From Chloroflexota bacterium (GTDB lineage Bacteria > Chloroflexota > Anaerolineae > Fen-1058), in contig JACRBO010000554.1 in NCBI GenBank assembly GCA_016219235.1, positions 1 through 7,544 of the forward strand: 7,544 nt of DNA, given 5' to 3'. A program made the position numbers and the translations under genes. Below the pieces are notes generated by a model. It did no database searches. It had not been told where the DNA came from and saw only the letters and a program-made list of their open reading frames with translations. Shown here in pieces: positions 1-7,544 of this stretch (position 1 is its first letter; every line of letters begins with the position of its first letter).

Positions 1-1151
1 CCGACCAGCGCCAGCACTTCGCCGGGTTTTACTTCCATCGAAACAGCGTGCAGCGTGTGAACTTGCTCGTTGTCCCTGTAGGCAAATGATACGCCATCGA
101 GTTGGATATGACCGGCGACGCGGGACAGGGGGCGCGCGCCGGGCGCATCGGCAATCTCTGGCGGCGTATCCAGAATCTCAAACAGCCGCTTTGTCGCGCC
201 CAGCGCTTCCTGCAGGCCCGTCCACAGACTGCTGAACTGGCCGATCGATCCGGCGATCGTCATCGTCAGGATCAAGAACATCACCAGTTGGCCCGGCGAC
301 AAATTCTGATTCAGTACCTCGTGCCCGCCGAACCAGAACACCGACACGACCGCGGCAAAGCCCATGAACGAGGCCAGCGGCCCGAACACCGCCGACAGGC
401 GAATGCGCTGCATGGCGAGTGTGAACGTGCGCTCGATGCTGTCGCGGAAGCGGCCGATCTCATACGGCTCGCGCGTGAACGACTGCACCACGCGCACGCC
501 GCTGATGGCTTCTTCCACCACGGTGGTCGCGCCGGCGAGTTGATCCTGCACCGCGCCCGACAGCTTGCGCAAGCGCCGGCCAAACAGCAGCGCCACGATG
601 ACGACCAGCGGCACCAGCGCCAGCATAAACAGCGTCAAGCGCCAGTTGGTCAACACGATCAAGATCAACGCGCCGACGAACGTCAGCACTTGCGAGATAG
701 CCGTCGAAATGTCGCTGGTCATCAGGACGCGCACCGTCGAGACGTCGTTGGTCAGGCGGCTGACCAGTTCGCCCGTGCGGCGCTCGTTGAAGAAACTCAG
801 CGACAGGCTTTGCAACTGCGCGAACAGCCGCAGCCGCAGATCGGCCATGACGCGCTCGCCGATGAATTGCAGCTGATATGCGCGGATGAAGTAGAAGACG
901 CTCTGCGCGGCGAACACGCCCACCAGCACCACCGTGATCTGATTCAGCAGCGCGCCGTCGCTCTGCTTGAACACGGCATCGATGAGGAATTGCAGCATGT
1001 ACGGCCCGGCCAGACTCAACACGCTGCCGATGACGACGGCGATCAACGCGATGATCAACCGGCCGCGATAGGGCCTGACAAACGCCAGCAGGCGGCGAAA
1101 CTGATCGGTACTCTTGAGTGGGTTTTCTCGCTTTGATTCAGGTTGTTGCAT
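1..1151 (-). CDS. ABC exporter, membrane domain fused to ATPase (3' part outside window)
   Basis: Only the first 383 residues are present; the frame is open at the left edge. The protein is a half-size ABC exporter with the membrane domain first. About six hydrophobic segments are visible (roughly residues 32-50, 70-90, 152-170, 172-190, 255-275, 285-305). The cytoplasmic-loop motif FFNERRTGELVSRLTNDV (120-137) is typical of MsbA/LmrA/BmrA-type type IV exporters. The ATPase begins near residue 348 with the A-loop aromatic in VSFAY (Y358) and is cut just at the Walker A glycines (LALVG). It should act in the cytoplasmic membrane, exporting a lipid, drug or peptide using ATP; the substrate cannot be read from the sequence. 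The ATG at 1151 is chosen because GAGGT lies just upstream at 1155-1159, though at a short spacing. The gene follows thrB on the same strand, but its own promoter (1248-1276) suggests it is not simply part of the thr operon. Confidence 0.93.
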   Translation of the reverse strand, partial: MQQPESKRENPLKSTDQFRRLLAFVRPYRGRLIIALIAVVIGSVLSLAGPYMLQFLIDAVFKQSDGALLNQITVVLVGVFAAQSVFYFIRAYQLQFIGERVMADLRLRLFAQLQSLSLSFFNERRTGELVSRLTNDVSTVRVLMTSDISTAISQVLTFVGALILIVLTNWRLTLFMLALVPLVVIVALLFGRRLRKLSGAVQDQLAGATTVVEEAISGVRVVQSFTREPYEIGRFRDSIERTFTLAMQRIRLSAVFGPLASFMGFAAVVSVFWFGGHEVLNQNLSPGQLVMFLILTMTIAGSIGQFSSLWTGLQEALGATKRLFEILDTPPEIADAPGARPLSRVAGHIQLDGVSFAYRDNEQVHTLHAVSMEVKPGEVLALV

Positions 1152-1206
1152 AAGACCTCGGTCGACTCTCACCCCGCGCGCCGACGGCGCGGTTCTCAGA
1201 CGAACA

Positions 1207-1247: not shown

Positions 1248-1276
1248 AGTATAGCCCGTGCCATGCAGTGCGTCAA
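1248..1276 (-). promoter_or_regulatory. sigma70-type promoter for the ABC exporter
   Basis: On the minus strand TTGACG (1276-1271) is separated by exactly 17 bases from TATACT (1253-1248). Each hexamer matches the sigma70 consensus at five of six positions. The -35 box overlaps the TGA stop of thrB (1275-1273). Predicted transcription start is near 1241, which leaves a leader of about 90 nt before the exporter ATG at 1151. It is a prediction from consensus only. Confidence 0.6.
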
Positions 1277-2163
1277 GAAACGACCCTCGCTCCCATCCGA
1301 TCGACCTTCAAAATCCACGTGCGCGAGTCGATGGCATTGGCCGCAAACGCCTGCGTCATCGCCTCAGCAATCTCCGCATGCCGATCGTGCGCGAAGGCGA
1401 TCAGGCTGGGGCCAGAGCCGCTGATGGCGACCGCCGCCGCCCCCGCACTTTTGGCCGCTGCCAACACCATGTCGTAGCCGATGATCAAGAACTTGCGCAG
1501 CGGCTGATGCAGCCGATCGTCCATGGCGCGCCCCAACAGATTCAGGTCGCCGCGCGACAGGGCCAGCGTCACCAGCGCCACGCGGCCCGCGTTGAAGATC
1601 GCATCGGCGCGCGGAATCTGCGCCGGCAAAATGCGGCGGGCCGTCTTCGTTGCCACGCGCAGATCGGGGTTGATGACGACCACGGTTAGATCGGGCACGT
1701 CCACGCGATCGACGATCGGGCCGTTATCATCCGCCGCTACGATGACCAGGCCGCCCAACAGCGCGGGCGCGACGTTATCGGGATGGCCTTCGATTTCGAT
1801 GGCGAGATCGAGTAACTGGGGATTGGTCAACGGGTAATGGGTCAAAGCGTTGGCGGCGACGAGTCCGCCGACGATGGCGGCTGAACTTGATCCCAGGCCG
1901 CCCATCATGGGGATGCGATTGATCGAGCGTAGGCACAGCCCTGTGGGTTGGTACCCCACCCGATCGAACACGCGCTGCGCCGAGCGCAAGATCAAGTTGT
2001 TGGCGTCGTGCGACAGTTCCGCCGCGCCTTCGCCGTCGATGACGATCTCCAGCCCGTGCGGAATCTCCGTCAACTCGATCTCTTGATACAGGGCCAGCGC
2101 CATGCCCAGGCAATCGAAGCCGGGGCCGAGGTTGGCGGTGGTGGCAGGGACGAGGACTTTCAT
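1273..2163 (-). CDS. thrB: homoserine kinase
   Basis: Homoserine kinase phosphorylates L-homoserine with ATP to O-phosphohomoserine, the substrate of threonine synthase, in the cytoplasm. The 296-residue protein is the usual length for this GHMP-kinase family. It has the N-terminal PATTANLGPGFD motif (6-17), the glycine/serine-rich phosphate loop GLGSSSAA (89-96), EGHPDNVAPALLGG (125-138) and the C-terminal GHMP motif ISGSGPSL (247-254). I start at the ATG at 2163 because family members begin almost directly before the PATTANLGPG motif. An in-frame TTG three codons upstream (2172) lies within repeat sequence and is less likely. No Shine-Dalgarno is visible before either start, so translation may depend on coupling with thrC or on A/T-rich leader sequence. 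It lies 68 nt downstream of thrC, with an inverted heptamer repeat in the gap. Confidence 0.96.
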   Translation of the reverse strand: MKVLVPATTANLGPGFDCLGMALALYQEIELTEIPHGLEIVIDGEGAAELSHDANNLILRSAQRVFDRVGYQPTGLCLRSINRIPMMGGLGSSSAAIVGGLVAANALTHYPLTNPQLLDLAIEIEGHPDNVAPALLGGLVIVAADDNGPIVDRVDVPDLTVVVINPDLRVATKTARRILPAQIPRADAIFNAGRVALVTLALSRGDLNLLGRAMDDRLHQPLRKFLIIGYDMVLAAAKSAGAAAVAISGSGPSLIAFAHDRHAEIAEAMTQAFAANAIDSRTWILKVDRMGARVVS

Positions 2164-2251
2164 AATTAACAATGATCAATTAACAATGACAAATGACCAA
2201 CACACCCCACGCAGCACGCTTTTGTCATTGTTCATTTTTCATTTGTCATTG
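2164..2251. repeat. heptamer repeats and inverted repeat between thrC and thrB
   Basis: Period-7 units are visible at both ends: AATTAAC, AATGATC, AATTAAC, AATGACA, AATGACC (2164-2198) and TGTCATT, GTTCATT, TTTCATT, TGTCATT (2223-2250). The two blocks are inverted copies. CAATGACAAATGA (2184-2196) is perfectly complementary to 2239-2251, and an alternative perfect 12-bp pairing joins 2182-2193 with 2221-2232. The right block encodes the last residues of thrC (MTNEK and the TGA stop at 2234-2232). In the thrC-thrB mRNA this would give two alternative hairpins just before thrB. Confidence 0.85.
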
Positions 2252-3296
2252 CCGCTTCCAGCGCACCCATTTCCGCCTCAATTTCCAGCGGTTTGGGCAT
2301 ACGCTCGGTGATGACGGTCGGGTCTTTGAGGCCGTGACCGGTCAGCACGCACACGATGCGTTTGCCTTCATAGGCGTGCTTGTTTTGCAGGATCGCCTTG
2401 CGCAAGCCGGCCACACTCGCCGCCGAGGCCGGTTCCACCCACACGCCTTCGAGTTGGGCCAGCAGCCGTTGCGCGTCGAGGATTTCGTCGTCGCTGACGG
2501 CCAGGATGCGGCCGTGAGATTCTTCGGCGGCCAGCAGCGCCTCTTCGCCGCGCGCGGGTCGGCCAATGCGAATCGCGGTAGCGATGGTCTCCGGGTTATC
2601 GACGGCGTGGCCGATGACGAGTGGTGCGGAGCCTTCAGCCTGGGCACCTAACATGCGCGGCAACGTAGTGGCTTTGCCGATCTGCTGATATTGCTTGAAG
2701 CCCGCCCAGTACGCCGTGATGTTACCGGCATTGCCGACGGGCAGGCACAGCCAATCGGGCGCGGCGCCCAGCGCATCGCAGATTTCAAACGCGGCCGTTT
2801 TCTGCCCCTCGATGCGATACGGATTGATCGAGTTGACGAGCATGATCCGGCCGGTGGCCGAAATCTCGCGCACCAAGCGCAGGCCATCGTCAAACGAGCC
2901 TTGACTCTGGATCACCTGCGAGCCGTAGGCAATCGCTCCGGCCAGTTTGCCCGCGGCCACTTTGCCCTGCGGAATCAGCACCACGCACTTCAGGCCGGCG
3001 CGGGCCGCGTACGCCGCCGCGCTGGCGGCCGTGTTGCCGGTGCTGGCGCAGATGACGGCCCGCGCGCCATCGGCCACGGCTTGCGTCATGGCGGCCGTCA
3101 TGCCGCGATCTTTGAACGAGCCGGTAGGATTCAGCCCTTCGAACTTGGCGCGCAGATTGGCGTTGAACAACATCAACTCATGCGCCAGGCGGGGCAGGGG
3201 AATCAATGGTGTGTCGCCTTCCAGCATTGTAATCGGTTCGATGTTGGCGACGTTGAGTAGGGGACGGTAAGCGGCGATGACGCCGGGCCAGGCCAT
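2232..3296 (-). CDS. thrC: threonine synthase
   Basis: Threonine synthase converts O-phosphohomoserine to L-threonine with release of phosphate, using pyridoxal phosphate (PLP), in the cytoplasm. At 354 residues it matches the shorter, Bacillus/Thermus-like class. Visible motifs: EGDTPLIPL (26-34), the PLP-lysine motif NPTGSFKDRG (56-65, Schiff-base Lys62), STGNTAAS (85-92), SINPYRIEGQKTAAFE (156-171) and the phosphate-binding loop PVGNAGN (186-192). I start at the ATG at 3296 because GGAGG lies four bases upstream and the N-terminus MAWPGVIAAYR is family-like. The frame stays open for ten more codons upstream, but those are encoded by heptamer repeat. The C-terminal MTNEK and stop lie within repeat DNA. 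It is the first gene of a thrC-thrB unit. Confidence 0.96.
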   Translation of the reverse strand: MAWPGVIAAYRPLLNVANIEPITMLEGDTPLIPLPRLAHELMLFNANLRAKFEGLNPTGSFKDRGMTAAMTQAVADGARAVICASTGNTAASAAAYAARAGLKCVVLIPQGKVAAGKLAGAIAYGSQVIQSQGSFDDGLRLVREISATGRIMLVNSINPYRIEGQKTAAFEICDALGAAPDWLCLPVGNAGNITAYWAGFKQYQQIGKATTLPRMLGAQAEGSAPLVIGHAVDNPETIATAIRIGRPARGEEALLAAEESHGRILAVSDDEILDAQRLLAQLEGVWVEPASAASVAGLRKAILQNKHAYEGKRIVCVLTGHGLKDPTVITERMPKPLEIEAEMGALEAAMTNEK

Positions 3297-3300
3297 AGTG

Positions 3301-3305
3301 CCTCC
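3301..3305 (-). promoter_or_regulatory. thrC Shine-Dalgarno
   Basis: GGAGG on the minus strand, four bases before the ATG at 3296. It decides the thrC start against the longer repeat-encoded extension. Confidence 0.85.
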
Positions 3306-3306
3306 A

Positions 3307-3350
3307 ATGATGAATGCATAATGCACAATGCATAATGCTCAATGCACAGC
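3307..3350. repeat. heptamer repeat in the thrC leader
   Basis: Direct period-7 units GCATAAT, GCACAAT, GCATAAT, GCTCAAT, GCACAGC (3316-3350), preceded by degenerate units. They fill almost the whole predicted 5' leader of thrC between the -10 box and the Shine-Dalgarno. Confidence 0.85.
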
Positions 3351-3356
3351 GAGGCG

Positions 3357-3365
3357 ATTATATCA
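3357..3365 (-). promoter_or_regulatory. extended -10 promoter for thrC-thrB
   Basis: On the minus strand TGATATAAT reads as an extended -10 (TGnTATAAT; perfect TATAAT at 3362-3357). Predicted start is near 3350, giving a leader of about 54 nt. The region where a -35 box would sit is heptamer repeat with no good match, which fits an extended -10 promoter. Confidence 0.6.
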
Positions 3366-3366
3366 T

Positions 3367-3495
3367 GTGATGAGTGACGAGTGATGACTGAACTGTACTG
3401 CGTAAAGCGTACTGCGTAAAACGGCATTCACGCATCACGGATTACGTAGTACGCATTACGCATCTTGCATCTTGCATCCTGCATCTTGCATCCCG
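3367..3495. repeat. complex heptamer repeat block between divergent promoters
   Basis: This non-coding block contains several period-7 families in a row: GTGATGA, GTGACGA, GTGATGA (3367-3387); a 14-mer (two periods) GTACTGCGTAAAGC / GTACTGCGTAAAAC (3395-3422); and eight consecutive units ending in G from 3440 to 3495 (TAGTACG, CATTACG, CATCTTG twice, CATCCTG, CATCTTG, CATCCCG after GATTACG). Positions 3400-3419 and 3442-3461 are an inverted repeat matching at 18 of 20 positions with a 22-nt centre. The block lies exactly between the two outward-facing extended -10 promoters. Confidence 0.85.
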
Positions 3496-3497
3496 CG

Positions 3498-3506
3498 TGC
3501 TATAAT
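3498..3506 (+). promoter_or_regulatory. extended -10 promoter for the small acidic gene
   Basis: TGCTATAAT (TATAAT at 3501-3506) is a perfect extended -10. A convincing -35 is not visible in the repeat upstream. Predicted start near 3513 gives a 19-nt leader carrying the Shine-Dalgarno. An in-frame ATG at 3505 overlaps this box and so would lie upstream of the transcript start. Confidence 0.6.
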
Positions 3507-3521
3507 GCCTCATCTCGTGCT

Positions 3522-3526
3522 GGAGG
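3522..3526 (+). promoter_or_regulatory. Shine-Dalgarno of the small acidic gene
   Basis: GGAGG five bases before the ATG at 3532. Together with the -10 box it fixes the start there rather than at 3472 or 3505. Confidence 0.8.
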
Positions 3527-3531
3527 CCGAC

Positions 3532-3873
3532 ATGCAACTGCCCGATCCGCTGCCCACAGAACCGGATGCCCTGGAAGAGCTCTATCGAACTTACTGCCAG
3601 CAGGAAGATGCGGATGAAGCGGAGTTGCAGCGTCTGACTGAGGCACGGCTGTCTGCCTGGGGCATCGATCCGCAGCACATGACGGCCGATCAAGTCTTCA
3701 ACGCGATGAACGAATCGATGAACAGCATGCTGATGAATCTGTACGCGGCTCAGGACGAAGCGCCGGATGATGAGTTGGCGACGCAAATGAAGGAGTTGAT
3801 CGGAATGGCGGAGCAACTGCGAGAGCACATCAGCGAGGCGATGAACGACGAAAAAACGAAGAATGACAAGTGA
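3532..3873 (+). CDS. small acidic helical protein, function unknown
   Basis: I do not recognise this 113-residue protein. It is strongly acidic and appears almost entirely helical, with no signal peptide, no membrane segment and a single cysteine (C22). Segments 11-40 (rich in E, D, L) and 80-104 look like amphipathic helices separated by a GIDPQHMTADQVFNAMNES stretch (44-62) and a run of methionines and asparagines. The lysine-rich tail (NDEKTKNDK) grades into the heptamer repeat that also supplies the stop. An extended -10 promoter, a good ribosome-binding site and the soluble composition support a real gene. The overlapping antisense frame is histidine/arginine-rich and looks like a shadow. 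It lies divergently from thrC and convergently with the cyclase, so neighbours give little clue. It may be lineage-specific. Confidence 0.75.
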   Translation: MQLPDPLPTEPDALEELYRTYCQQEDADEAELQRLTEARLSAWGIDPQHMTADQVFNAMNESMNSMLMNLYAAQDEAPDDELATQMKELIGMAEQLREHISEAMNDEKTKNDK

Positions 3874-3921
3874 TGAGTGACGAGTAACGAGTAAAGAACG
3901 ATTACTCGTCACTCGTTACTT
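3871..3921. terminator. bidirectional terminator-like inverted heptamer repeat
   Basis: Between convergent genes, 3876-3894 (units TGACGAG, TAACGAG) is an inverted copy of 3902-3920, agreeing at 17 of 19 positions with a 7-nt loop. One of the two differences is a G-U pair in RNA. The right arm contains the TGA stop (3911-3909) of the minus-strand cyclase, and the left arm starts at the stop of the plus-strand gene. No strong U-tract follows on either strand, so termination or mRNA-end protection is inferred from position and structure. Confidence 0.55.
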
Positions 3922-4544
3922 ATTAGAATGGCCCGCACCGGCGCGCCGTCGCCGCCCTTCAACTTCAACGGCAAACAGATCAGTTGATAGTTCCCCGGTT
4001 CAATCCCGCTGAGGTTCAAATTCTCCACGGCGATAATGCCTGCGCCCAGCAAAATCTCGTGTGGCACGATCGTATCCGCGAAGGGCGCGACGGACATATA
4101 GTCCACGCCCACCAGTTGGACACCACGCTCGACGAGCCATGCCGCGCCCGATGGATCGATCCCGACGTAATCGGTGTGACAGACGTTATCGCCGCGCGCC
4201 CAGATTTCGGAATTGCGCGTGCGGAAGAGCAAGCGCCGCGTGTCTGCCGGGATGTCGAGGGTGTCAAGCAGAGCGGCATTGATCACTGTCGCGTCGGGCA
4301 CATACACCACCACACACGGACCAATCAACACAGTCAGATCGAGTTGATCGACGGTGCGGCCGCCCTTGACGAAGTGCAGCGGCGCATCGAGGTGTGTGCC
4401 GATATGCGAGCCAGTTTCCAGCCGGGACAACGTACACACATCGCCGTTATTCACGTCGGCCACGCGATAGAAGTTGACGGCCGGATCACCCGGCCACACC
4501 GGCAAGTCGTTGGAGATTGTAAGCGTAATGTCGAAGATGGGCAT
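3909..4544 (-). CDS. cyclase family metal-dependent hydrolase (kynurenine formamidase-like)
   Basis: The 211-residue protein belongs to the cyclase/KynB family of soluble metal-dependent amidohydrolases, about the usual length. The signature HIGTHLDAPLHF (47-58) carries the expected metal ligands H47, H51 and D53 plus H57. The N-terminal ITLTISNDLPVWPGDPAV (6-23) and the late GVDYMSV and LLGAGIIAVENL stretches are also family-like. KynB members hydrolyse N-formylkynurenine to kynurenine and formate. Other members act as isatin hydrolases or antibiotic cyclases, so I give no symbol. No tryptophan-degradation gene is adjacent to settle the substrate. The ATG at 4544 is the natural family start, although no Shine-Dalgarno is visible before it. 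It lies 117 nt downstream of the anti-sigma gene on the same strand, separated by repeats. Its last codons (SNE and TGA) are in heptamer repeat. Confidence 0.88.
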   Translation of the reverse strand: MPIFDITLTISNDLPVWPGDPAVNFYRVADVNNGDVCTLSRLETGSHIGTHLDAPLHFVKGGRTVDQLDLTVLIGPCVVVYVPDATVINAALLDTLDIPADTRRLLFRTRNSEIWARGDNVCHTDYVGIDPSGAAWLVERGVQLVGVDYMSVAPFADTIVPHEILLGAGIIAVENLNLSGIEPGNYQLICLPLKLKGGDGAPVRAILISNE

Positions 4545-4562
4545 GGTGAGGAATCGGCGATA

Positions 4563-4659
4563 AAGCGATCAAGCGATCAAGCGAATCTGCGAACAAGCGA
4601 CCAGTTACCAGTTGACCAGTTACCAGTTGACCAATTTACCAATCTACCAGTTACCAATC
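4563..4659. repeat. tandem repeats between anti-sigma gene and cyclase
   Basis: Two sequence families are side by side: AAGCGATC in tandem (4563-4584, period 8) and a perfectly duplicated 15-mer CCAGTTACCAGTTGA (4601-4615 and 4616-4630), made of a 7-mer plus an 8-mer, then degenerate copies (CCAATTTA, CCAATCTA, CCAGTTA, CCAATCA) to 4659. Unlike the other gaps these are direct repeats without a strong inverted partner. The cyclase leader would run through them. Confidence 0.85.
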
Positions 4660-4661
4660 AA

Positions 4662-4907
4662 CTACTCCCCCGCCTTCCAATTCCTGAATACACTCAACAA
4701 CTCATCGCGTGCCTGTGGTTCGATGGTCTCTTCGCTCAGGTGGCCGAGCGTGCGAATGGTGATCTCCATCTGATCGAGATAATGGCCGCACGCTTCGCAG
4801 TCGGACAGGTGCATTTCAAAACGCGACCGATCCGTCGGCGGCAGTGCGCCTTCCAGATAGTCGGTCACCAGTTCAACCAGTTCGTTGCAAGCCAGATCGT
4901 GAGCCAT
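4662..4907 (-). CDS. soluble zinc-binding anti-sigma factor (zf-HC2 / ZAS type)
   Basis: An 81-residue protein made of a single anti-sigma zinc-finger domain. It would bind and hold the ECF sigma factor encoded just upstream. Predicted zinc ligands are C7, H33, C37 and C40, that is C-x25-H-x3-C-x2-C; the H-x3-C-x2-C piece is HLSDCEAC (33-40). There is no membrane segment, so unlike many anti-sigmas it should be cytoplasmic. The ATG at 4907 shares one base with the sigma TGA stop (TGATG), which implies translational coupling and roughly matched production. An in-frame TTG at 4910 is one codon longer but less likely. The same ligand spacing occurs in the disulfide-responsive RsrA of Streptomyces, but non-redox members share it too. 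Confidence 0.9.
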   Translation of the reverse strand: MAHDLACNELVELVTDYLEGALPPTDRSRFEMHLSDCEACGHYLDQMEITIRTLGHLSEETIEPQARDELLSVFRNWKAGE

Positions 4908-5554
4908 CAATGATTTGCCAGGTAATCTTCCAGCGCCGCGCGCACCTTCGCGCGAGCGCGATGCAGCAGGACGCGCTGATTAGTCTCGCTGATGTCCAGC
5001 GCATTACAAACCTCGTCCGAACTCCAGCCGTCGACGTCGCGCAAGGTGATCACTTCGCGTTGGGCGGGCGGCAGGGCGTCGATGGCCGATCGGATGTAGG
5101 CCAGCGTCTCGCGCGATAGCAGCCGCGTTTCCGGCTGATCGTTCCACGCGCCCGGCTCGATCGACCAGCTACCCGCCCATTGCTCGTCGGGCGACACAAA
5201 CCGATCGGGCGTGACGGTCGGCTCAGCCGCTTCCGACTCCACATCGAATAGCGTCGAAAACGGCACACTGCGCGCCTCGCGCACGCCGCGCGTTTTGGCC
5301 GTGTTGGTCAGGATGCGAAACAGCCACGTTTTGAAGGACGAGCGGCCTTCGAAGCGATCAATGCCTTTCAGCACGCCCAGCCAGGTATCTTGCACGACCT
5401 CCTCAGCCGCGGCGCGATCAGCCACGTACATCTGCGCCAGGCGCACGAGCGAGGCGTGATAGCGATCAACCAGCTCGACGAACGCCGCTTCGTCGCGGCG
5501 GCGCAGGGCTTCAATCAGAACGGCTTCTTCGGTAACGGCAGGCAGGGTGACCAT
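4907..5554 (-). CDS. ECF-family RNA polymerase sigma factor
   Basis: A group 4 (ECF) sigma factor that would direct RNA polymerase to a dedicated promoter set. Region 2 spans about residues 20-92, with the core-binding and -10 recognition stretch from AEEVVQDTWLGVLKGI to FKTWLFRILTNTAKTR. Region 4 spans about 150-205, with the helix-turn-helix around ITLRDVDGWSSDEVCNALDI and NQRVLLHRARAKVR. The linker (about 97-148) is long for an ECF factor and contains DRFVSPDEQWAGSW, a pattern I associate with one ECF subgroup paired with small zinc anti-sigmas. I chose the ATG at 5554 (215 residues): the in-frame TTG at 5596 and ATG at 5569 lie in or upstream of the predicted promoter. The stop overlaps the anti-sigma ATG. 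Confidence 0.93.
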   Translation of the reverse strand: MVTLPAVTEEAVLIEALRRRDEAAFVELVDRYHASLVRLAQMYVADRAAAEEVVQDTWLGVLKGIDRFEGRSSFKTWLFRILTNTAKTRGVREARSVPFSTLFDVESEAAEPTVTPDRFVSPDEQWAGSWSIEPGAWNDQPETRLLSRETLAYIRSAIDALPPAQREVITLRDVDGWSSDEVCNALDISETNQRVLLHRARAKVRAALEDYLANH

Positions 5555-5564
5555 CTCGGCTGGA

Positions 5565-5593
5565 AGCATACAACACGGCTGTAACCTTGTCAA
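5565..5593 (-). promoter_or_regulatory. sigma70-type promoter for the sigma/anti-sigma pair
   Basis: On the minus strand a perfect TTGACA (5593-5588) is followed after exactly 17 bases by TATGCT (5570-5565; four of six matches). Predicted transcription start is near 5558, only a few bases before the ATG at 5554, so the transcript would be leaderless or nearly so. No Shine-Dalgarno precedes that ATG, which agrees with this. Confidence 0.6.
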
Positions 5594-5676
5594 CAAATCT
5601 CAGACAGTTGATTTGAATCTCGTCGCACAGCCGCTGCGTATTGAACGATAAGCCACTTTGACTGGAGCAGATCGGT

Positions 5677-5958
5677 GTGACCGCGTTTCGAAATGCTCAA
5701 ACCCTCATTGACCGGATCAGTGCCTTGCCGGAACCGTACCAAACCAACCTGATCGAGTGGTTCCGGTGCGGACTCGATTGGTCGATCCACGCCCCCTGCG
5801 AAGGATTAGTTCGCCTGGAAGACTTGCTGCGCACCGCACCGCTGGGGCATCTGGTGCAGCTGAAGCAAGTGCTGGCAGAGGCCGAACGTTATTTTGGCGG
5901 CGTTCAACTTGTAATGAATTCACCGGTCAGGCAGACTATCTTCGCAACCAGTAGTTAA
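5677..5958 (+). CDS. small protein of unknown function upstream of the reductase
   Basis: I do not recognise this 93-residue product. It starts at GTG, nine bases after GGAG (5664-5667). It looks like a folded soluble helical protein: one helix around 8-30 (ALPEPYQTNLIEWF), then CGLDWSIHAPC (31-41) with two cysteines and a histidine, then an amphipathic helix about 44-72 ending at the aromatic pair in ERYF. No signal peptide or membrane segment is visible. Codon third positions are fairly GC-rich in the middle, supporting coding. It ends 22 nt before the glutaredoxin-reductase start, so the two are probably co-transcribed, and it is divergent from the sigma gene. The overlapping minus-strand frames look like shadows. 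A small adaptor or regulator is possible, but nothing in the sequence proves a role. Confidence 0.55.
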   Translation: MTAFRNAQTLIDRISALPEPYQTNLIEWFRCGLDWSIHAPCEGLVRLEDLLRTAPLGHLVQLKQVLAEAERYFGGVQLVMNSPVRQTIFATSS

Positions 5959-5980
5959 TCCTCTATTGCGAAGGGAACAC

Positions 5981-7165
5981 ATGTCTCATACCAACCTCAC
6001 CGTCTATGGCGCCACCTGGTGCGGCGACTGCAAACGCGCCAAGAAGTTTCTGGGCGAGCAGCGCGTCCATTATGAATGGGTCGATGTCGAGCAGGATGCC
6101 GACGGGCTGGCGCTGGTCGAGCGCGTCAATAGCGGCAAACGTATCATCCCCACGATTGTCTTCCACGACGACAGCAGTTTTCTCATCGAACCCAGCAACG
6201 CCGAACTGGCCGCAAAACTCGGCCTGCAAACCACCGCGCGCATGAGCTATTACGATCTGATCTGCGTCGGCGGGGGGCCGGCCAGTTTGACGGCGGCGCT
6301 GTACGCGGCGCGCGAAGGGTTGGATGTGCTCGTGATCGAGAAGAGCGGCCTGGGCGGGCAGGCGGGCGTCACCGAGCGGCTGGATAACTTCCCCGGTTTC
6401 CCCGACGGGATCGGCGGGGGCGAGTTTGCCGATCGGTTGACCACTCAGGCGCGGCGCTTCGGCGTCGAGTTGTTGCAAGCGCAGGAAGTCACCGCCTTGC
6501 GTGAAGAAGAAGAATCGAAATACGTGACCACGTCCGACGGGCGCGAGTACGGCGCGCGGGCAGTGCTCATCGCTACGGGATCCACCTACAAACGATTGGG
6601 CGTGCCGGGCGAAGACGACCTCATCGGCGCGGGGGTGCATTTCTGCGCGACGTGTGATGGGCCGTTTTACAAGGGTGAGCACGTGGCCGTCATCGGCGGC
6701 GGCAACAGCGCCGGTGAAGAGAGCCTGTTTCTGACGCGGTTCGCCGACAAAGTGACGATCCTGGTGCGCGGCGCGGACATGACGGCCAGCCAGATCGTGA
6801 TTGATAAAGTGAACGCGAACGCGAAGATCGAGTTACGCTACAACACCGAAGTCACGCAACTGCACGGTGAAGCCAAACTCGACGGCCTCACCGTGCACGA
6901 TCGGATCAGCGGCGCGACCGAAGTCATTCACCCCAGAGCCGCCTTCGTGTTCATCGGCCTGTCGCCGAACACCGGCTGGCTGCCCCCTGAAGTAAAGTTG
7001 GATAAATATGGCTTCATCGTTACGCAGCCGAACCTTGAAACGTCGATGCCGGGCGTGTTTGCGGCGGGTGATGTGCGCCTGGGCAGCACCAAGCAGGCGG
7101 CCAGCGCCGCGGGCGAGGGGGCTACGGCGGCGCTAATGGTGCGCGAGTATCTGAAGACGATCTGA
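5981..7165 (+). CDS. glutaredoxin-like domain fused to thioredoxin reductase
   Basis: A 394-residue fusion. Residues 1-80 are a glutaredoxin/mycoredoxin-like thioredoxin fold with active site WCGDC (C14, C17) and the cis-proline stretch IIPTIVF. From about residue 88 (MSYYDLICVGGGPAS) a complete low-molecular-weight thioredoxin reductase follows. It has FAD motif GGGPAS (97-102), redox-active CATC (C222, C225) in FCATCDGPF, nucleotide-binding motif GGGNSAGEE (239-247), and C-terminal FAD motif GVFAAGDVR (358-366). The reductase should pass electrons through FAD and CATC to its own CGDC domain and then to cytoplasmic disulfides. Oddly, the NADPH-phosphate motif HRRxxxRA is replaced by VRGADMTA (262-269). 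The ATG at 5981 has AAGGGA just upstream and begins right before the glutaredoxin fold; a TTG at 5966 is disfavoured. The internal Met88 looks like the ancestral reductase start but has no clear ribosome-binding site. Confidence 0.95.
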   Translation: MSHTNLTVYGATWCGDCKRAKKFLGEQRVHYEWVDVEQDADGLALVERVNSGKRIIPTIVFHDDSSFLIEPSNAELAAKLGLQTTARMSYYDLICVGGGPASLTAALYAAREGLDVLVIEKSGLGGQAGVTERLDNFPGFPDGIGGGEFADRLTTQARRFGVELLQAQEVTALREEEESKYVTTSDGREYGARAVLIATGSTYKRLGVPGEDDLIGAGVHFCATCDGPFYKGEHVAVIGGGNSAGEESLFLTRFADKVTILVRGADMTASQIVIDKVNANAKIELRYNTEVTQLHGEAKLDGLTVHDRISGATEVIHPRAAFVFIGLSPNTGWLPPEVKLDKYGFIVTQPNLETSMPGVFAAGDVRLGSTKQAASAAGEGATAALMVREYLKTI

Positions 7166-7168
7166 CAA

Positions 7169-7232
7169 GTGACGAGTGACGAGTGAGCAATGTTCTTTCA
7201 CTCGTCACTCGTCATTCGTTACTCGTTACTCG
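7169..7232. terminator. perfect 17-bp inverted heptamer repeat between convergent genes
   Basis: TGACGAGTGACGAGTGA (7170-7186) is perfectly complementary to 7198-7214, with an 11-nt loop. The left arm is two GTGACGA units plus GTGAGCA; the right side is five units (TCACTCG twice, TCATTCG, TTACTCG twice) running to 7232. It starts four bases after the reductase stop and ends just before the stop of the minus-strand gene. It is probably a bidirectional transcription-end or mRNA-stabilising structure, although U-runs are weak. Confidence 0.65.
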
Positions 7233-7239
7233 TCAAACT

Positions 7240-7503
7240 TTACTTCTTCGCCTTCAACGACTCCACCAACGCCACATACTCCTGCATCGCGGCGTCTTTC
7301 GTTTTGCCCTTCAATTTGGCCCACGCGTCATACTTCAATTTGCCCTCCATGTCGAAGCCGGCGGGCCGGCTGCCGGACACATCGCCGCTGGTGGCCTGTT
7401 TGTACAGCCCGTATAGTTTGAGCAGCGTGTTGTTGTCGGGTCGCTTCGGCAACTTCTTGGAATCGAGCGCCGCTTGCTCGAACGCGGCTTTCACGTCGGC
7501 CAT
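7240..7503 (-). CDS. acyl-CoA-binding protein
   Basis: An 87-residue protein, the full length of the acyl-CoA-binding protein (ACBP) family, which holds medium- and long-chain acyl-CoA esters in the cytosol and buffers or delivers them. Family motifs are LYGLYKQATSGD (30-41), RPAGFDMEGKLKYDAWAKLKG (from 46) and the final helix AMQEYVALVESLKAKK. The ligand-contacting residues of bovine ACBP (Y28, Y31, K32, K54, Y73) are all conserved as Y31, Y34, K35, K57 and Y76. The usual KWDAW is KYDAW here, with W61 kept. The start at 7503 has AAGGAG six bases upstream. It is monocistronic as far as visible and convergent with the reductase. The family is near-universal in eukaryotes and patchy in bacteria. 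Confidence 0.95.
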   Translation of the reverse strand: MADVKAAFEQAALDSKKLPKRPDNNTLLKLYGLYKQATSGDVSGSRPAGFDMEGKLKYDAWAKLKGKTKDAAMQEYVALVESLKAKK

Positions 7504-7510
7504 GCTAGTC

Positions 7511-7538
7511 TCCTTGCAAGTGGGGTAAATCGATTTTA
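7511..7538 (-). promoter_or_regulatory. ribosome-binding site and possible -10 box of the acyl-CoA-binding protein gene
   Basis: AAGGAG (7515-7510 on the minus strand) is a clear Shine-Dalgarno. TAAAAT (7538-7533) matches five of six bases of the -10 consensus and would give a leader of about 22 nt. The -35 region lies beyond the window edge and cannot be checked. Confidence 0.45.
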
Positions 7539-7544
7539 GTAGCG

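Follow-up and report, generated by a model that had tools for sequence, protein, structure and literature searches.

The DNA analysed here is the 7,544-nucleotide contig JACRBO010000554.1 of a Chloroflexota bacterium (Anaerolineae; Fen-1058), referred to in its full length as the window. Its genes, assigned from Pfam matches, include thrB, thrC, a cyclase gene and a gene for a sigma-70 region 2 and 4 protein (Table 1), and several of the gaps between them hold tandem arrays of heptamers, many of which are hairpins. An earlier note on the window had described these period-7 arrays and ascribed them to local expansion of heptamers. The arrays are real, and in addition the composition of their mRNA-sense strand depends on the gene end, with purines prevailing directly downstream of stop codons and pyrimidines directly upstream of start codons. 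This new regularity is strong in two of the three Chloroflexota groups compared. In related species the sites keep period, edges and often the hairpin while the letters of the units change.

The closest relative (G118) is 83–86% identical to the window at the nucleotide level; the two ThrC proteins share 95% identity, and ThrC of G066, G138, and G031 is 77–79% identical to the window protein. Members of a second group, the genus of G242, share 82–93% nucleotide identity (G262 93%, G404 87.5%, and G370 82% relative to G242).

Period-7 arrays and hairpins of the window

A lag-7 scan of the window gave six segments of together 216 bp, 189 bp of which lie outside genes, and first-order Markov shuffles (n = 20) gave none. 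Among other periods, period 8 gave one segment, period 14 two, and periods 4–6 and 9–13 none. The period-7 rows of Tandem Repeats Finder (2164-2187, 2225-2251, 3313-3348, 3395-3418, 3424-3463, 3460-3492, 3864-3892, 4600-4656, 7163-7186, and 7198-7235) show that the array coordinates given in the earlier note were correct to within a few bases. Its description of 4563-4659 as a mixture of 7- and 8-mers is borne out by further rows of period 8, 15, and 16 at 4553-4659. That arrays fill most intergenic regions is true of five of the nine gaps in the gene list used for the scan; in the other four (1173-1272, 5597-5676, the short gap before 5981, and 7504-7544) the lag-7 scan found none, and the first of these has a conserved GC-rich hairpin that is non-heptameric.

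A comparison of gaps and coding DNA against shuffled controls, which had been suggested as a check, was made with 236 kb of G118 that was not selected for repeats (contig C674 among it was picked for ThrC). Period 7 was found in 14 of 94 gaps compared with 0.0 in shuffled gaps, the remaining periods between 4 and 13 occurred in three gaps at most, and the density of period 7 was 628 per Mb of gap vs. 11 per Mb of coding core. Because arrays sit in matching gaps of separately assembled relatives, it is unlikely that those of the window are assembly artefacts. At locus L127, in a draft contig, a 67-bp GTGACGA array occurs twice in identical form (3668-3734 and 3895-3961); a run of N stands ahead of the second copy, and this duplicate is perhaps a scaffolding artefact. 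Tandem 7-bp units beyond chance, intergenic location and whole-unit changes in copy number were all found and place the arrays in the class of heptanucleotide simple sequence repeats, which in cyanobacteria are named short tandemly repeated repetitive (STRR) sequences.

Four array groups of the window are inverted pairs, with arms at 2164-2193/2221-2250, 3399-3419/3442-3462, 3873-3894/3902-3923, and 7165-7186/7198-7219 and DNA fold z-scores of -2.8, -1.8 (fold of 3364-3500), -6.0, and -4.3, respectively. As RNA the hairpins at 3866-3925 and 7163-7235 reach z-scores of -5.8 to -7.6 on either strand (-5.8 and -6.7 for the latter). DNA folding gave no hairpin at 3303-3360 or 4555-4665 (z +0.4 and +0.6), and a search of the 4600-4659 array for an inverted repeat found none. 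The arm at 2164-2193 lies between the thrC stop and the thrB start, its minus strand being the pyrimidine-rich leader of thrB, and the thrC reading frame (minus strand; protein end MTNEK-stop) terminates within the facing arm, which has a purine fraction of 0.74. The thrC leader array lies immediately upstream of GGAGG (3301-3305) and the ATG at 3296, a layout found elsewhere as well. The array at 3367-3392 belongs to the same unit family as the hairpins at 3866-3925 and 7163-7235, and G118 keeps a shorter copy of it (GTGACGAGTGA). The arms of the 3395-3463 hairpin are 90% complementary, both reading frames next to the 3866-3925 hairpin terminate within it, and the first bases of the 7163-7235 hairpin lie within the stop codon of the preceding gene. 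Read in the direction of the adjoining gene, the 4557-4604 array is pyrimidine-rich (cyclase gene, start at 4544), and the 4600-4659 array has a mild purine excess (0.57; zf-HC2 gene, stop at 4662).

The window units GTGACGA, AATGACA, CGTAATG, GCATTAT, and GCATCTT all lack GGG and with it the G-runs of a quadruplex; GGG occurs in a few units of relatives, e.g., AGGGATC. An Rfam scan of the window gave three matches, every one below the gathering score, and those to mir-587 (E 0.0008) and mir-5880 coincide with the 7163-7235 hairpin, a palindrome that they are considered to resemble by chance. A stretch containing TATAAT (3498-3509), kept in G118 (TGCTATAATGC), stands right after the GCATCTT array and is possibly the promoter of the reading frame at 3532.

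Table 1. Genes, arrays and hairpins of the window (ORF, open reading frame).
Feature	Position	Strand	Basis
ABC transporter membrane domain gene	3-1172	-	Pfam
ThrB (GHMP kinase) gene	1273-2163	-	Pfam
5' hairpin arm, units AATTAAC/AATGATC/AATGACA	2164-2193	+	Tandem Repeats Finder, inverted repeat, fold z -2.8
3' hairpin arm, partner of 2164-2193	2221-2251	-	Tandem Repeats Finder, inverted repeat
ThrC (PALP enzyme) gene	2232-3296	-	Pfam
thrC leader array, sense GCATTAT/GCATTGA..., no inverted pair	3306-3350	-	Tandem Repeats Finder, fold z +0.4
Array GTGATGA/GTGACGA	3367-3392	+	Sequence, orthologue comparison
Hairpin, CGTACTG/CGTAAAG/CGTAATG units	3395-3463	.	Tandem Repeats Finder, inverted repeat, orthologue
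Array GCATCTT x5, pyrimidine-rich, leader side of ORF at 3532	3460-3495	+	Tandem Repeats Finder
Small ORF without Pfam match	3532-3873	+	Region aligns with G118
Hairpin, GTGACGA/GTAACGA, between convergent genes	3866-3925	.	Inverted repeat, fold z -6.0
Cyclase gene	3909-4544	-	Pfam
Period-8 array, GCGATCAA on plus strand	4557-4604	-	Tandem Repeats Finder
Mixed 7/8 array, ACCAGTT/ACCAGTTG on plus strand	4600-4659	-	Tandem Repeats Finder
zf-HC2 gene	4662-4910	-	Pfam
Sigma-70 region 2 and 4 protein gene	4907-5596	-	Pfam
Small ORF without Pfam match	5677-5958	+	Region aligns with G118
Glutaredoxin-Pyr_redox fusion gene	5981-7165	+	Pfam
Hairpin, GTGACGA/GTAACGA, between convergent genes	7163-7235	.	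Tandem Repeats Finder, inverted repeat, fold z -4.3
ACBP gene	7240-7503	-	Pfam

Two of the neighbouring genes deserve mention in their own right. The fusion gene joins a glutaredoxin domain (residues 7–63) to a thioredoxin-reductase-like Pyr_redox domain in a single reading frame, and this Chloroflexota bacterium encodes a small acyl-CoA-binding protein (ACBP, PF00887).

Orientation of the arrays at gene ends

Anaerolineae stretches of together 1.07 Mb, partly selected for a unit, contained 268 arrays (score at least 13) and 100 heptamer or octamer hairpins (repeat segment at least 11), the hairpins not being a strict subset of the arrays; with a single threshold for both, a hairpin lies no more than 45 bp away from 98 of 246 arrays, though not all of these hairpins are built of heptamers. 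These hairpins are polar. Of 98, 86 have more purines and 10 more pyrimidines in the 5' arm, the remaining 2 being balanced, and among heptamer hairpins with a G/C difference G exceeded C in the 5' arm in 58 of 65 (48 against 7 when distinct unit families are counted), compared with 43 of 83 other intergenic hairpins (Fisher p 9e-7), which are G/C-unbiased (43:40). By gap type, 18 hairpins lay in convergent gaps (77 such gaps in the background), 58 in tandem gaps (343), and 7 in divergent gaps (73), and a further 8 were inside open reading frames; arrays in tandem gaps lie close to the preceding gene, at a median of 10.5 bp from its stop.

The same polarity is seen when gene ends are compared. 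In the 28 nt after stops the ratio of purine-rich to pyrimidine-rich (R:Y) was 82:29 with an array vs. 303:222 without (Fisher p 0.002), and G exceeded C in 85:27 vs. 297:255 (p 1e-5). Immediately upstream of a Shine-Dalgarno sequence and ATG, arrays were pyrimidine-rich in 17 of 18 cases compared with 208 of 369 leaders without arrays, with a filter, set after the first result, that excluded Shine-Dalgarno sequences inside arrays and required an ATG and 120 codons. The first leader test had shown no bias (17 Y:13 R) and was discarded, as Shine-Dalgarno-like tracts within purine-rich arrays were counted as starts; similarly, single arrays in tandem gaps showed no strand bias as one unsplit set (30:32), and the rule appeared after they were split by gene end. 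Non-hairpin arrays obey the rule too, with R:Y ratios of 35:12 downstream of stops and 8:19 ahead of the starts of reading frames. By group the R:Y ratios after stops and before starts were 83:33 and 12:50 in the genus of G242, 12:2 and 1:11 in G256, G385, G123, and G332, and, more weakly, 26:14 and 7:12 in cyanobacteria (Fisher p 0.05); G118 and the window, with crude gene calls, gave 27:13 after stops. In the window, where segments were picked by hand, 10 of 10 gene ends follow the rule by purine content; by G/C alone they are less regular.

As the polarity follows the adjacent gene ends, selection, besides mutation, probably shapes the arrays, and the expansion process proposed in the earlier note is incomplete as an account of arrays that are so often hairpins with a polarity tied to neighbouring genes. 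Transcription-coupled mutation alone is disfavoured as a cause of the orientation, because both arms of a hairpin in a tandem gap share the sense strand yet differ oppositely in composition. Selection for stop codons was also considered and rejected as the cause of the polarity. Stops are commoner in the 5' arm (69 hairpins vs. 10, 19 equal), mostly through purine content, and distinct units exceed their letter shuffles in only two of seven groups (27 vs. 20.3 stops in the genus of G242 and 7 vs. 4.5 in G385), so that purine content accounts for most stops.

Turnover and dispersal of units

Comparison of orthologous gaps, likewise a check that had been suggested, showed that relatives carry arrays in many corresponding gaps, with edges and often the hairpin persisting and units that are sometimes quite different. 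In the gap between thrB and thrC the AATGACA/AATTAAC hairpin of the window corresponds to a CGTAATG/CGTACTG hairpin in G118, GTAACGA facing TTACTCA in G138, and a short GTAACGA hairpin in G031. The thrC leader has GCATTAT units in the window, and in G118 and G138 its units are NTCATTN; in all three the array runs up to a GGAGG. G118 keeps a similar hairpin at the 3395-3463 site, has AATGAAC plus CGCATCA/CGCAGTA units in place of the GTGACGA hairpin at 3866-3925, and is 53 bp shorter with changed units at 4557-4659. The GCATCTT array at 3460-3495 is absent from G118, where a reading frame of ~210 codons (L133:3528-4160, between thrC and the small gene) occupies the gap. The comparison stops before 7163-7235, where the G118 contig ends.

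Within the genus of G242 a unit with at most one mismatch was found at the orthologues of G242 arrays in 19 of 22 cases in G262, 10 of 19 in G404, 6 of 14 in G370, and 1 of 2 in G403, the share among random array pairs being 10.7%. Orthologous sites without an array numbered 1 of 23, 3 of 24, 4 of 24, and 1 of 3 in the same order, and 0, 2, 6, and 0 were scored as unclear. Where units differ, the surroundings may be the same: at L160:11588 a GTGACGA hairpin in G242 and a CGTAATC hairpin in G370 share the flanks TTACGGCCGTA and CGACGGCCGTGCCCA, at L156:1027 three species have three unit families between almost identical edges, and at L156:14086 GTAATTGG in G242 and G262 corresponds to AGATTAG in G404. 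The nine distinct hairpin sites of G242 had a hairpin, of whatever sequence, in 13 of 18 orthologue comparisons vs. 6 of 43 at non-hairpin arrays; control segments from other intergenic DNA, 5 in number, did not enter this comparison. Array length was identical between G242 and G262 in 12 of 24 cases, and 7 of the other 12 differences were multiples of 7 (1.7 expected), which fits slippage.

The earlier note had held the units to be gap-specific and had argued from a shared period without shared sequence; neither statement stands. GTGACGA units occur in the window gaps at 3367, 3866, and 7163, and three exact copies of GTRACGA in 48 of 396 Anaerolineae genomes. Reversed GTRACGA, tried as a null control, matched 22 of 396 genomes and is no true null, the reversed form being an AGTGAGC-type unit and itself a real array family. 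Identical units made up 5.2% of array pairs within the genus of G242 vs. 0.2% for letter-shuffled units, and 0, 0.15, 0.2, 0.4, 1.3, and 3.9% between six genus pairs, of which the last two include the G118 set and are inflated by contigs picked for GTGACGA. A 30-bp cassette of fixed order (two AATTATG units, AAGGATG, a further AATTATG, and AA) is dispersed in 23, 25, 29, 10, and 7 copies in G242, G262, G404, G370, and G403, compared with 4, 6, 7, 3, and 1 copies with permuted unit order, and in 0 copies in seven other genomes, including G353 of the same genus. Since the fixed order is the commoner, copying between sites also occurs, and of the claim of local expansion rather than dispersal only the first half, to which the whole-unit length steps correspond, is retained. 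The 20 of 23 G242 copies that were inspected have no long common flank. The longest strings common to different loci slightly exceed unit-shuffled ones in six of six genomes tested.

The cassette TTCATAATTCATCCTTCATAATTCATAATT (sense) stands immediately upstream of the Shine-Dalgarno sequence of many genes in one genus (L292-L311), a position that makes it a possible common leader element. Dispersed elements of other kinds were also seen, namely a non-heptamer element of ~134 bp (L163:5266-5399; ~39 copies listed at 84–95% identity in G256, weaker copies in G181 and G349) and one of ~80 bp (L158:6100-6182), with many copies listed in G242, G262, G404, and G403.

Origin of the arrays and relation to known heptamer repeats

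We consider it somewhat probable that fast-evolving arrays at gene ends arise from the combined action of three processes, namely slippage by seven letters at a time, the copying of units from site to site and from arm to arm, and selection at gene ends. Units would grow and shrink through replication slippage, as the length steps in the closest species pair suggest, and units or short strings of them would be copied to other gaps and between facing arms, presumably through gene conversion or ectopic template switching at the repeats. Such copying would give each genome a limited unit vocabulary, in line with the dispersal statistics, and keep the arms complementary. Selection would then keep what the adjacent genes tolerate or use, i.e., a sense strand that is purine-rich after the stop and pyrimidine-rich before the Shine-Dalgarno sequence, with few tracts resembling the latter, and an array between two gene ends would tend toward a hairpin with a purine-rich 5' arm. 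In this view the hairpins would probably punctuate the 3' ends of transcripts whatever their sequence, and the leader arrays would provide an unstructured distance ahead of the Shine-Dalgarno sequence. Since period, orientation and pairing would be what chiefly counts, a site could last while its letters are replaced.

Several observations weigh against this explanation. Some of the relatives' stretches were picked for holding a unit and related genomes are non-independent samples; 64 of 246 arrays in the larger, partly selected set lie inside greedily called reading frames of at least 150 codons, either through wrong gene calls or because they are truly coding; no array is detectable in the thrB-thrC gap of G066; and unit distance misjudges some sites, as L158:7801 in G404 and L159:18681 were scored as different and by eye have units in common. 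The excess of multiples of 7 is absent at greater distance (4 of 21 in G404, 2 of 16 in G370, and 0 of 3 in G403), and at L156:1027 and L156:12877 an abrupt switch from a CGTAATC-type to an AGTGAGC-type hairpin separates G242 from G262, so that slippage alone is insufficient. The mean score for arm-to-arm templating was 20.0 vs. 17.7 with shuffled unit order (Wilcoxon p 2e-8), but none of 55 individual hairpins, which were score-selected, showed it at p 0.05. Intrinsic terminators (a GC-rich stem followed by a T-run) gave 8 matches in the window vs. 8.1 from shuffles, none of them on an array. The start side of the orientation rule fails in G118 and the window (7 R:4 Y, crude gene calls), stop codons in the other five of seven groups are near or below the number expected from composition, and other intergenic hairpins also have a mildly purine-rich 5' arm (56:30), so that the R/Y polarity is partly general and its G/C part specific to heptamer hairpins.

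A stronger version, in which a dedicated process working in 7-nt steps rewrites facing arrays at transcript ends from a genome-wide vocabulary and selection acts only on period, polarity and pairing, a “sequence-free code,” appears unlikely. We likewise give little credence to a purely mutational origin, in which period 7 stems from the replication machinery and neutral arrays survive only where harmless. Polymerase contact length has been proposed as the basis of heptanucleotide repeats (PMC4679880; PMC4692102), and a dominant period 7 with period 8 second, as well as the length steps of seven, would be expected; however, strand orientation at stops and starts, the polarity of unit families in hairpins and the dispersal of a fixed-order cassette are not predicted.

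Mobile palindromes, i.e., non-autonomous elements like repetitive extragenic palindromic (REP) sequences or miniature inverted-repeat transposable elements (MITEs), moved by an enzyme and replaced by insertion at preferred targets at gene ends, are quite improbable. They could account for the limited vocabulary per genus, for whole hairpins being replaced between shared edges and for the unrelated palindromes that by eye take the place of the array in some species at L158:19319, L159:6002, and L160:3893. On the other hand unit number varies among arrays, and constant ends and target duplication were not noticed by eye, no systematic search having been made. REP elements with RAYT are short extragenic palindromes present in many copies; here, in contrast, a constant palindrome is absent and the Y1 transposase PF01797, which we take to be the RAYT family, was found in 11 of 14 array-bearing genomes and not in G118, G073, and G123, drafts that may be incomplete, which disfavours it as the engine. 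That every unit family is a regulatory motif bound by a separate factor, with arrays as multi-copy sites in leaders and 3' regions, is highly doubtful, for although the AATTATG cassette adjoins a Shine-Dalgarno sequence in 17 of the 20 inspected copies (by reading, CTCC, the complement of GGAG, within 20 nt) and the thrC leader array is present in the window and relatives, its units differ among the window, G118, and G138, and turnover within a genus is hardly tolerable to a sequence-specific factor.

Sites that keep period, edges and often the hairpin while the letters change allow the choice of words, made by mutation, to be told apart from the choice of orientation, made by selection; they offer a natural experiment accessible to measurement in metagenomes. 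At genome scale the orientation rule can be tested, and the arrays matter for annotation as adjacent reading frames terminate within them.

The earlier note had likened the arrays to those of cyanobacteria, and rightly so. Like the arrays of Nostoc they have a dominant period of seven and several families, are mainly intergenic and include the unit AATGACA; AATGACN-type 20-mers matched Nostoc linckia (G005) 401 times, overlaps included, and had no match in the nine Chloroflexota genomes searched. They differ in that 100 hairpins accompany 268 arrays in Anaerolineae and 3 accompany 80 arrays in 0.40 Mb of cyanobacterial stretches scored by the same criteria, and few paired repeats are reported for Nostoc (PMC4692102). 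Indels between two Cyanothece strains were mostly in 7-nt steps (PMC4679880).

The GGGAATC heptamers of Xanthomonas are intergenic, near stops, and more frequent between convergent (16%) than divergent (7–8%) reading frames, with 70 and 75 inverted pairs whose orientation is termed “convergent”; two species mostly have them between corresponding genes, though with variation (Rehm et al., 2015; PMC4692102). The paired arrays with the G-rich strand first resemble those described here, the Xanthomonas polarity being read from the word “convergent”; unlike that single quadruplex-forming family, dozens of families occur here, they are exchanged at orthologous gaps, and the arrays are oriented relative to starts as well as stops. 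In Beggiatoaceae TAACTGA repeats are mostly oriented toward start codons, mostly without a Shine-Dalgarno sequence and with one inverted set, and have been proposed as the motif of a binding factor (MacGregor, 2015; PMC4679880), in contrast to the many families and the leader arrays ahead of Shine-Dalgarno sequences found here. Chloroflexus aurantiacus, of the same phylum, has 22 satellites of one heptamer repeat, (GATAGRA)n, likewise scattered over the genome, for which the portion of PMC6749651 at hand does not mention the hairpins and gene-end orientation seen here. Multi-family heptamer hairpins in Anaerolineae or an orientation at starts and stops were not found described in the open-licence literature, as far as its accessible text goes, and the reason for the favoured length of seven, and any role of such repeats, are described as open in the available parts of PMC4692102 and PMC4679880. 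Heptamer repeats are a kind of element already known in bacteria, of which the arrays of the window and its relatives are a many-family hairpin variant.

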